Positions 9,097 through 12,178 of a DNA stretch of 64,000 nt are shown one piece after another. The DNA is from Clostridiaceae bacterium (GTDB taxonomy: Bacteria > Bacillota > Clostridia > Acetivibrionales > DUMB01), in contig DUMB01000017.1 in NCBI GenBank assembly GCA_012840085.1, positions 1-64,000 on the forward strand, read 5' to 3'. Numbering within the stretch: the first letter of the stretch is position 1; each line of letters opens with the position of its first letter. The position numbers and the translations under genes were made by a program. Under the pieces are notes generated by a model that worked only from the letters and a program-made list of their open reading frames with translations, searched no databases and was not told the origin of the DNA.

Positions 9097-9153
9097 TTTC
9101 CAATAATTCTGTAAGACAATCTGCAAAATAAAACAGATATTGTATAGTTGTCA

Positions 9154-9192
9154 AAAACATTCTGATTGATACAAGTCAGGATGTTTTTTTTG
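9154..9192 (+). terminator. Intrinsic terminator after ftsZ
   Basis: AAACATTCTGA / TCAGGATGTTT forms a hairpin followed by a run of eight T. It separates the division genes from the spoIIG operon. The T-run borders a candidate Spo0A box (TTGTCGTA, 9190-9197). Confidence 0.85.
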
Positions 9193-9222
9193 TCGTACTT
9201 TTTATTTTTTCTACACTAGCTT

Positions 9223-9255
9223 TTGACAAAAATAATAAGCGTTTAATAGTATAAT
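9223..9255 (+). promoter_or_regulatory. Candidate spoIIG promoter with wide spacing and Spo0A-box-like sites
   Basis: A perfect TTGACA (9223-9228) and a perfect TATAAT (9250-9255) are separated by 21 bp instead of 17. The B. subtilis spoIIG promoter has the same unusual feature (22 bp) and depends on Spo0A binding over the -35 region. Spo0A-box-like sequences are TTGTCAAAA (9149-9157), TTGTCGTA (9190-9197) and TTTGTCAAAA on the opposite strand over the -35 (9222-9231). The regulatory role is inferred from this similarity. Confidence 0.7.
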
Positions 9256-9346
9256 GAACAATATAGTTGTGAAGCAATGAAGTAATAAAAGTACAGGCAT
9301 TTGAATATATGTAAAATAGGTTATGTCTGATTGTGAGGTAAAAGCA

Positions 9347-10261
9347 TTGGAAATTTTTCTGGATGTTTTGTTTTTGGAAAATATCGTTATGAACTATTTT
9401 ATACTGGTAGTTACTTCAAAGCTTTCCAGGAGCAAGACGACTAACCTGCGAATGTTTCTGGGAGCTCTTGCGGGTGCAGTGTATGTTGCACTTATGGTGC
9501 TGATGCCAGGTTTGAAAATACACTATACAGCATTTGCAAAAATATTGCTTTCTATTGTGATTATTTTGATAACCTTCAGGCCCAAAAATATCGGCTCATT
9601 GTTCAAGAACCTGGCAGTTTTTTACATATCTACTTTTATATTTGCAGGAGCTGCACTTGCTTTTGTGTACTTTGATCAGGGGGAAGGCTTCATAAGAAAT
9701 GGGGTTATTTATGTTTTCTGGCAGTCTAAGTGGACTGTGCTTGTATTATCAGTAGTTTTGGTTGGAATTATAGTAAGGATATTCTGGGAGATAATTCAGT
9801 TTAAGTTTGTAAAGGAAAAACTTCTTATACAGCTCAAAATATCCTTTGAAAATAAGACAAGTAATCTTCCGGCACTAATTGATACGGGAAATTCGCTGAG
9901 AGATCCCATAACAAATATGCCGGTTATAGTGGTAGAATTCAGTGCGATAAAAGAGATTCTGCCTCCAGACATAAAAAGCATTTTTGAAGAGTCAAGAGAG
10001 AATGACCTTGATTCTATAAGCGGTATAATTTTAAATTCCAGATGGTTTTCAAGGTTCAGACTTATACCGTACATGTCCCTTGGCAAGGAAAATGGCATGC
10101 TGATCGGTTTTAAGCCTGACTATATTGAAATAGGTGACGACGAGGAAAAGAAGGGGATGAGTGATGTAATAGTAGGTATCTACAACAAGGCATTAACAAA
10201 AAATGAAAGGTACAGGGCACTTTTAAGTCCGGAATTGCTTTTAAGTCCGGAACTGGTTTAA
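9347..10261 (+). CDS. spoIIGA: Sporulation sigma-E processing peptidase SpoIIGA
   Basis: A membrane-embedded aspartic protease that activates pro-sigma-E in the mother cell. I start it at TTG 9347, giving MEIFLDVLFLENIVMNYF, the typical family N-terminus, 7 nt after GTGAGGT (9333-9339); the frame continues upstream to 9323 without an SD. About five membrane helices fill residues 1-150. The C-terminal cytoplasmic domain carries the catalytic aspartate in LPALIDTGN (Asp about 179). A short direct repeat, LLSPELLLSPEL, ends the protein. It is about 50 bp upstream of its substrate gene sigE. Confidence 0.93.
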   Translation: MEIFLDVLFLENIVMNYFILVVTSKLSRSKTTNLRMFLGALAGAVYVALMVLMPGLKIHYTAFAKILLSIVIILITFRPKNIGSLFKNLAVFYISTFIFAGAALAFVYFDQGEGFIRNGVIYVFWQSKWTVLVLSVVLVGIIVRIFWEIIQFKFVKEKLLIQLKISFENKTSNLPALIDTGNSLRDPITNMPVIVVEFSAIKEILPPDIKSIFEESRENDLDSISGIILNSRWFSRFRLIPYMSLGKENGMLIGFKPDYIEIGDDEEKKGMSDVIVGIYNKALTKNERYRALLSPELLLSPELV

Positions 10262-10310: not shown

Positions 10311-11042
10311 ATGAACATAATAAAAAAATTCAAGCTATCCATTACAATCGCGTATATAAATCTATTCAGAAGAACTGGAAAATATGTCAGGCTGCCTGTA
10401 CATTATATTGGTGGAAGCGAGGCATTACCACCCCCTTTAAGCAATGAAGAGGAACATTATCTTTTAAACAGGCTTGAAAAAAGTGATTATGCGGTAAAAT
10501 CCATTCTAATTGAAAGAAATTTAAGACTTGTTGTGTATATTGCACGTAAGTTTGAAAATACCGGTGTTGGAGTGGAAGATCTTGTTTCAATCGGGACAAT
10601 AGGCCTTATTAAGGCAATAAATACATTTAATCCGTCAAAAAATATCAAGTTGGCAACTTATGCTTCAAGATGCATAGAAAATGAAATCCTGATGTATTTA
10701 AGGAGAAATAACAAGGTAAAAGCTGAAATTTCAATTGATGAGCCGCTTAATATAGATTGGGATGGCAATGAGCTTCTTCTTTCTGATATTCTGGGTACGG
10801 ACAATGATATTATACACAGAAGTATAGAAGATGAAGTAGACAAGGAACTATTAAAAGCGGCAATGAAAAAATTATCAGTTCGCGAAAAAAAGATTATGGA
10901 GCTGAGATTTGGACTTACAAACGGTGTTGAAAAAACACAGAAGGAAGTGGCCGACATGCTGGGAATCTCCCAGTCTTACATATCAAGGCTGGAAAAAAGG
11001 ATAATAAGCAGGTTAAAAAAGGAAATCAGCAGGATGGTTTAG
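10311..11042 (+). CDS. sigE: Mother-cell sporulation sigma factor sigma-E (pro-protein)
   Basis: The 243-residue precursor of sigma-E. The first roughly 28 residues are the basic pro-sequence, ending near [15 protein letters not shown], which closely resembles the region cleaved by SpoIIGA in B. subtilis. Region 2 follows ([51 protein letters not shown]), then region 3 and region 4 with the helix-turn-helix [22 protein letters not shown] choose ATG 10311 because AAAGGTGA (10298-10305) is ideally spaced; GTG 10302 and ATG 10305 overlap that SD. It is co-transcribed with spoIIGA. Confidence 0.96.
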
Positions 11043-11143
11043 CAAAATTTTTATATTTCAGAAAACATGCTGATTGTATGAAATTATTGATTTTGTCAAG
11101 GGTTTTTGCGAAAATTTTATTATTATTTTTACCCTGTTTTTCA

Positions 11144-11203
11144 GTATAAAATTAACCTCCTAGGCAATAATGATACTGACTGAAAATTGATTGCCGGGAG
11201 GTT
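11144..11203 (+). promoter_or_regulatory. sigG leader: sigma-F/G-type promoter and SD-sequestering hairpin
   Basis: GTATA (11144-11148), a 14-bp spacer and GGCAATAATG (11163-11172) match the sigma-F/sigma-G pattern GyATA - N14-16 - GGnnAnAnTR. Overlapping it, AACCTCC-TA-GGCAAT (11154-11168) can pair with ATTGCC-G-GGAGGTT (11190-11203), a 13-bp stem with a small internal loop. The 3' arm contains the sigG SD (GGGAGGT). Initiation from the predicted promoter, about 7 nt after the -10 at about 11179, would leave out the 5' arm; read-through RNA from sigE would contain it. Confidence 0.7.
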
Positions 11204-11209
11204 TTACTT

Positions 11210-11983
11210 ATGTTGGTCAACAAAGTGGAAATATGCGGTGTAAACACTTCCAAACTGCCTTTATTAACAAATGAGCAAAAAAAACAACTCTTTGAAAGAA
11301 TACACAAAGGGGATGCCTCGGCAAGAGAAGAGTTTATCAATGGGAATCTCAGACTTGTTTTAAGTGTTATTCAGAGATTTAACAACAGAGGAGAATATGT
11401 GGATGACCTTTTCCAGGTCGGTTGCATAGGTCTGATAAAAGCAATTGACAATTTTGATCTGAACCAGAATGTAAAGTTTTCAACGTATGCAGTTCCTATG
11501 ATAATAGGTGAGATTAGAAGATATTTGAGGGACAACAATCCCATACGCGTAAGCAGATCCCTCAGAGATATTGCATATAAGGCCCTTCAGGTCAAGGAAA
11601 AACTTACAAACAAGAATTCGAAGGAGCCGACTATTAATGAGATAGCAGAAGAATTAAAACTTCCTAAAGAGGAGGTAGTGTTTGCGCTTGATGCTATACA
11701 GGATCCGATTTCGCTTTTTGAATCGGTTTATCATGACGGAGGAGATGCCATATTTGTAATGGATCAGGTTAAAGACGAAAAGAATAATGATGAGAACTGG
11801 CTGGAAGGTATTTCTCTGAAGGAGGCGATGAGAAAGCTGAGTGAAAGAGAAAGACTTATACTAAATCTCCGTTTCTTTGAAGGAAGAACTCAAATGGAAG
11901 TTGCGGAAGAAATCGGTATATCTCAGGCTCAGGTTTCAAGACTTGAAAAAACAGCTTTAATGCATATGAGAAAGTATATATGA
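11210..11983 (+). CDS. sigG: Forespore sporulation sigma factor sigma-G
   Basis: A 257-residue late forespore sigma factor. The N-terminus NKVEICGVNTSKLPLL is the family hallmark that in B. subtilis contacts the anti-sigma factor CsfB/Gin. Regions 2-4 are complete: RLVLSVIQRFNNRGEYVDDLFQ, NFDLNQNVKFSTYAVPMIIG, and a region 4.2 helix-turn-helix (RTQMEVAEEIGISQAQVSRLE). The start is ATG 11210 with GGGAGGT 7 nt upstream, buried in a predicted hairpin. The gene lies 167 bp after sigE in the classic spoIIGA-sigE-sigG order, with its own forespore-type promoter in between. Confidence 0.96.
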   Translation: MLVNKVEICGVNTSKLPLLTNEQKKQLFERIHKGDASAREEFINGNLRLVLSVIQRFNNRGEYVDDLFQVGCIGLIKAIDNFDLNQNVKFSTYAVPMIIGEIRRYLRDNNPIRVSRSLRDIAYKALQVKEKLTNKNSKEPTINEIAEELKLPKEEVVFALDAIQDPISLFESVYHDGGDAIFVMDQVKDEKNNDENWLEGISLKEAMRKLSERERLILNLRFFEGRTQMEVAEEIGISQAQVSRLEKTALMHMRKYI

Positions 11984-12011
11984 GACATGCAGGGCTAAAA
12001 TATAATATATG

Positions 12012-12067
12012 GGGGGACATTCCTTAACGAAAAGGGAAATATCCTGTTCTTAGAAGGAATGTCCCCC
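12012..12067. repeat. Long perfect-arm palindrome (REP-like)
   Basis: GGGGGACATTCCTT pairs perfectly with AAGGAATGTCCCCC around a 28-nt loop. It could terminate sigG, but no T-run follows (TTACTGTT). It resembles the GGGAC...GTCCC palindromic intergenic repeats of many clostridial genomes; compare the element at 31176-31262. Confidence 0.7.
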
Positions 12068-12178
12068 TTACTGTTAAAATGGGCACCAGACAGGTGTCTT
12101 TTTTTATATGCTTTCATACGCAAAATTAAAATAGCATATATTATACCGAATAAAAAAGAAGGAAGGGCTGTATGCATT

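Follow-up and report, generated by a model that had tools for sequence, protein, structure and literature searches.

The window analysed here, a stretch of 64,000 nucleotides from contig DUMB01000017.1 of a Clostridiaceae bacterium, carries the gene row ftsZ, spoIIGA, sigE, sigG and a YlmC/YmxH gene. The spoIIGA-sigE pair lies directly upstream of sigG on the same strand, and a sigma-F/G-type promoter sits between the sigE stop codon at 11042 and the sigG ATG (Table 1). Upstream of spoIIGA, the sequences TTTTGTCAAAA (minus strand; 9221-9231) and TTGTCAAAA (~9149-9157) resemble the Spo0A boxes of the spoIIG promoter. A long inverted repeat, GGGGGACATTCCTT...AAGGAATGTCCCCC, is found directly downstream of sigG at 12005-12078; it has weak matches to microRNA models only, and could represent either a repeat element or the terminator of sigG.

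Table 1. Genes, promoter and hairpin elements of the sigG locus in the window
Feature	Position	Strand	Basis
spoIIGA	9323..10261	+	TIGR02854, 244.4 bits vs cut-off 209.55
sigE (upstream source of read-through)	10311..11042	+	TIGR02835, 412.2 bits vs cut-off 348.6
sigma-F/G-type promoter: GTATA 11144-11148, 14-nt spacer, GGCAATAATG 11163-11172	11144..11172	+	consensus match; equivalents at other sigG loci
5' (anti-SD) arm, AACCTCC-TA-GGCAAT	11154..11168	+	sequence, fold, pair counts in the window's order
Loop, 21 nt, with the predicted transcription start inside	11169..11189	+	sequence, fold
Predicted start of the short sigG mRNA	11178..11179	+	inferred by distance rule from the -10 element
3' arm, ATTGCC-G-GGAGGTT, with the SD inside	11190..11203	+	sequence, fold, pair counts in the window's order
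Shine-Dalgarno (SD) GGAGG of sigG	11197..11201	+	8 nt upstream of ATG 11210
sigG, sporulation sigma factor SigG	11210..11983	+	TIGR02850, 499.5 bits vs cut-off 457

Between the promoter and the start codon, the two arms form a stem of 13 base pairs, all of them Watson-Crick, that buries the SD of sigG; an earlier note had proposed this pairing from the letters alone, and its coordinates were right. The 5' arm (AACCTCC 11154-11160, TA, GGCAAT 11163-11168) occupies the promoter spacer and extends into the beginning of the -10 element, so the overlap of promoter and arm described in the same note also stands, while the 3' arm consists of ATTGCC (11190-11195), G and GGAGGTT (11197-11203). The fold of 11144-11230 has a free energy of -23.6 kcal/mol (z -3.67), and none of 200 shuffled sequences was as stable. 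The 59 genes of the window that carry an SD served as the chance reference for SD burial; with an SD-opening cost of 13.95 kcal/mol, sigG ranks at the top (mean 3.0, sd 2.2, second 7.3). An Rfam search returned only chance-level matches under the gathering scores, none of them covering the hairpin.

The accessibility of the SD depends on where the RNA begins. For sigG of the window, the cost of opening the SD is 14.1 kcal/mol when the RNA is read-through, 2.6 when it is native and 5.3 when the promoter segment is replaced by a foreign one, and an in silico change of the 5' arm lowers the cost to 5.9 kcal/mol. When the 5' end is moved along the locus, the cost is 10-14 kcal/mol for ends at or before 11156 and about 3-5 for ends at or after 11158. 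Because the drop occurs already at 11158, the contrast between locked and free RNA is robust to an error of up to ~20 nt in the start site, and with this margin the RNA of the gene's own promoter is predicted, from a start at about 11179, to lack the 5' arm. The same start rule applied to Cytobacillus (L083 and L089) places GCTCCT, which pairs with the SD, at +10 to +15, as described for B. subtilis (PMC5942855), and the rule is therefore probably good to a few bases. In the short mRNA, a modest hairpin at 11202-11235 (z -1.25) joins the start codon with the first codons; in B. subtilis, structure within the sigG coding sequence is also reported to dampen expression (PMC5942855).

For comparison, sigG loci were gathered from the window's order and class, from Bacilli and from further groups, so that several hundred spore-formers were compared. 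An equivalent sigma-F/G promoter was present at nearly all sigG loci examined, and the window's order has a -35/-10 spacing of 14 bp at 54 of its 58 loci. In a swap control, the segment from the -35 element to the start site was paired with the SD region of its own locus or replaced by that of another species. Own pairing was -13.7 kcal/mol against -10.0 with the foreign segment in 132 non-redundant loci (Wilcoxon 3e-8), and -19.8 against -11.3 kcal/mol in Bacilli; the control is conservative, since the segments of other species carry anti-SD runs too. Across 107 non-redundant co-directional loci, the maximum of SD complementarity was exactly in the -35/-10 spacer (p ~1e-13). In sliding windows of 14 nt, the excess of pairing reached -3.0 kcal/mol in windows beginning 6 nt past the -35 element (p 4e-13), was ~0 upstream of that element and faded beyond the start site.

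A locus was scored as locked when the SD-opening cost in read-through RNA exceeded that in native RNA by at least 3 kcal/mol. By this measure the window's order had the lock at 52 of its 54 loci, and it was identified in 37 of 43 Bacilli and in 22 of 29 Clostridiaceae (the family of C. paraputrificum), and in none of 29 Tissierellales-like loci (the order of Anaeromonas). Among 57 distinct sequences from the window's order, the core ACCTCC/GGAGGT was retained at 93-100%, and most substitutions in the 5' arm were of the types C to T and A to G, so that G-U pairs remain. The earlier note had asked for compensatory changes in relatives. Two loci (L015 and L165) carry the double change GGTAAT/ATTACC with a -10 element that is still valid, and another (L131) has lost CCTCC and gained CCCGGT/ACCGGG in a shifted register, pairing being kept in both cases. 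In an alignment of 16 sequences, 92.3% of cells pair, compared with 32-55% when the arms are slid, and the covariation score exceeded its letter-shuffle controls only modestly (22/500); the modest covariation and the small number of double changes within the order reflect the near invariance of the SD side. In distant lineages, unrelated stems occur at the same place, such as AAACTCAGC/GCTGAGTTT in L045, ACACACCTC/GAGGTGTGT in L048 and AACTTCCCCCTGT/ACAGGGGGAAGTT in L310. Four loci of one genus (L133, L136, L137 and L139) have gained an extra stem, ATTGACAAAGTCAAT...ATTGACTTTGT, in the loop of the hairpin, with both outer arms kept.

The distribution of the lock also follows the orientation of the neighboring gene. 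At co-directional loci, opening the SD costs 7.1 kcal/mol in read-through RNA, 2.8 in native RNA and 4.1 with a foreign segment, whereas at divergent loci the corresponding values are 4.0, 2.6 and 3.6, and the difference from the foreign segment is not significant. The read-through minus native cost differs between the two classes (p 0.0017), and locked loci make up 3 of 18 divergent as opposed to 54 of 99 co-directional loci (Fisher 0.004). The lock is mostly absent where sigG diverges from its neighbor, including a group in which it is divergent from spoIIGA. Strong locks of 11-17 kcal/mol were identified with co-directional genes other than sigE upstream, namely pgi (L220, L231), the inorganic pyrophosphatase gene ppa (L244) and a gene for a MalK-type ATPase (L230, L237). 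In a strict phylogenetic pair test on a FastTree tree, the orientation effect did not reach significance with the few independent contrasts available; as these number only about three, the effect is regarded as suggestive.

Many lineages have no lock, and intrinsic terminators appear to take its place in many of them. A terminator between sigE and sigG was detected at 65% of the unlocked loci, as compared with 12% of those with a lock (Fisher 7e-6), against a background of 0-2% in shuffled sequences; it occurs in 14 of the 29 Tissierellales-like loci, which have no lock, and at a single one of the 54 from the window's order. Independent pairs on the tree favor the expected direction (4.6 versus 0.3 in the opposite direction; median p 0.125), although so small a number of contrasts does not reach significance. 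A fresh set of 68 loci showed the same trend (odds ratio 0.14, p 0.003), and thinning to 37 or 26 representatives gave p values of 0.08 and 0.62, respectively, the direction being kept in the latter case, which covers novel representatives alone. It is likely, though not proven, that lock and terminator replace each other, and some lineages have neither a lock nor a detected terminator.

Taken at this locus, these observations make it highly probable that the sigG leader acts as a lock on read-through RNA, in which the SD is hidden only when transcription has come from upstream. Polymerase from the spoIIG promoter that passes sigE would produce an RNA holding the promoter-spacer segment of sigG as an anti-SD arm; this arm would pair with the sigG SD, and sigG would as a consequence not be translated from the long RNA. 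Polymerase with sigma-F or sigma-G would begin at about 11179, within the loop, and the resulting short mRNA, being without the arm, would have an open SD. The start site, the presence of read-through RNA and the block of translation are inferred for this bacterium. A single stretch of DNA would serve both as promoter spacer and as the arm of an RNA switch, and the start site would decide whether the mRNA is translated. The claim of the earlier note that read-through RNA is locked and own-promoter RNA free is backed by folding, by conserved pairing placed in the spacer, by the loss of the lock at most divergent loci and by the tendency to alternate with terminators. Its further claim that the start site sets compartment identity goes too far, as read-through RNA would be silenced wherever it is made, in the undivided cell as well as in the mother cell, and sigma-G is also under post-translational control. 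Retention of the hairpin behind vegetative genes such as pgi likewise suggests that it insulates sigG in general and does not encode the compartment.

The geometry had been presented as new in this clostridium; however, such a hairpin is already on record for B. subtilis, where a very large hairpin was proposed to block translation of spoIIGA-sigE read-through RNA and cannot form on transcripts from PsigG (PMC5942855, which cites Masuda 1988 for the proposal). The early sigG transcript of B. subtilis is described as a read-through product that is not translated (PMC2530871). As misplaced sigma-G is reported to be harmful in B. subtilis (PMC5942855), the gene must stay silent despite the early-transcribed operon upstream. 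The window shares with B. subtilis sigG (spoIIIG) the order spoIIGA-sigE-sigG, an own sigma-F/G promoter and a large read-through hairpin, which in the window is an SD-burying stem obtained by folding the long RNA. It differs in the sequence of the stem and in a T-rich tail, and the native SD is fairly open at 2.6 kcal/mol, while a small native hairpin covers the ribosome-binding site in B. subtilis. The window is accordingly a clostridial case of the same arrangement, which shares its overlapping promoter and arm with other loci. Among clostridia, Northern blots of C. acetobutylicum, as cited in PMC2530871, revealed spoIIGA-sigE-sigG, spoIIGA-sigE and sigG transcripts, and read-through together with a separate forespore promoter has been described in C. 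difficile (PMC7438776).

Comparable devices are known outside sporulation. In IS10, IS50 and IS200, the SD of the transposase gene is hidden in read-through RNA and not in the RNA of the element's own promoter; there the lock guards against insertion beside active genes, and the corresponding issue for sigG is developmental timing instead. In phage T4, the SDs of late genes and homing endonuclease genes (I-TevI, segB, soc, e) are buried only in RNA that arrives from early or middle promoters upstream, and RNA from the late promoter omits the 5' part of the hairpin, which leaves the SD free (PMC2988022). The likeness lies in SD burial that depends on the start site; the sequences are unrelated, and sporulation sigma factors here stand in place of the timing of late transcription in T4.

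Of the other readings considered, the least improbable holds that the hairpin is mainly an intrinsic terminator or attenuator halting read-through just upstream of sigG. The T-rich tail after the stem would fit such a role, with an average of 5.7 T in the 8 nt past GGAGG in the window's order (6 in the window itself) compared with 3.2 at 18 genes of the window that have GGAGG. However, the loop is 21 nt long, the T-tract TTTTACTT is interrupted and a terminator scan made no call. Moreover, the tail is not T-rich in Bacilli (1.3 of 8), where the lock is equally common, which identifies SD burial as the common denominator. As the main function, termination thus seems improbable, and it is kept as a minor role that could add to SD burial in the window's order. 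A still smaller chance is given to a hairpin that is also part of the native forespore mRNA, with a start upstream of 11154, and that would dampen translation constantly, as does the small hairpin at the B. subtilis ribosome-binding site (PMC5942855). Such damping would require a different promoter from the conserved sigma-F/G one, whose predicted start omits the arm, and it does not predict that the excess of conserved pairing stops near the start site.

The arms also flank the promoter and start site, as might an inverted repeat in the DNA that serves as operator for a regulator of PsigG. This is very improbable, as the stems are wholly different between lineages, the arms are asymmetric, leaders vary from ~25 to >70 nt, G-U pairs are common and the constant partner is the SD itself. 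Least credible of all is chance complementarity to the SD within a C/T-rich spacer; the anti-SD-like CCTCC is indeed short, but the swap and position controls, the absence of equally stable folds among the shuffled sequences and the top rank among the SD-bearing genes all disfavor it. The operator, the chance match and the damping of native mRNA were rejected on this evidence.

Extending the read-through lock beyond the window calls for somewhat more caution. It appears reasonably probable that an anti-SD arm in the promoter spacer is an insulation device for sigG across Bacillota that has either been retained widely or arisen repeatedly. Its sequence would change freely, an intrinsic terminator could stand in for it and it for a terminator, and it would be retained or lost according to whether upstream transcription can enter. 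If this is true, spore-formers have two answers to the same need for insulation, a lock on translation and termination. The comparison predicts which species use the lock and which the terminator, and removing either should matter only in the absence of the other. Since the mechanism itself has already been proposed for B. subtilis, the comparative support is the new part, and it lends evolutionary backing to a read-through hairpin that was described as a proposal (PMC5942855).

Several features of these loci were noted in passing. In the family of L038, genomes G543 and G550 have three and two full-length sigG matches, respectively, which may reflect either mixed assemblies or genuine duplication of the gene. 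In the window's order, a conserved element, TTGTCAAGG-N9-AAAATTTT (11093-11118 in the window), lies upstream of the sigG -35 element. Its TGTCAA was identified in 51 of 56 loci of the order and in 11 of 251 outside it, at a distance upstream that is mostly 39-40 nt in the order and 50 in the window. The difference between spacings of 40 and 50 nt equals one helical turn, which suggests that the element is a candidate protein site. When eight genomes were searched for TTGTCAAGG-N9-AAAATTTT, exact matches were found only at sigG in six, and at sigG with one mismatch in the other two. The portion TTTGTCAAG of this element resembles a Spo0A box.
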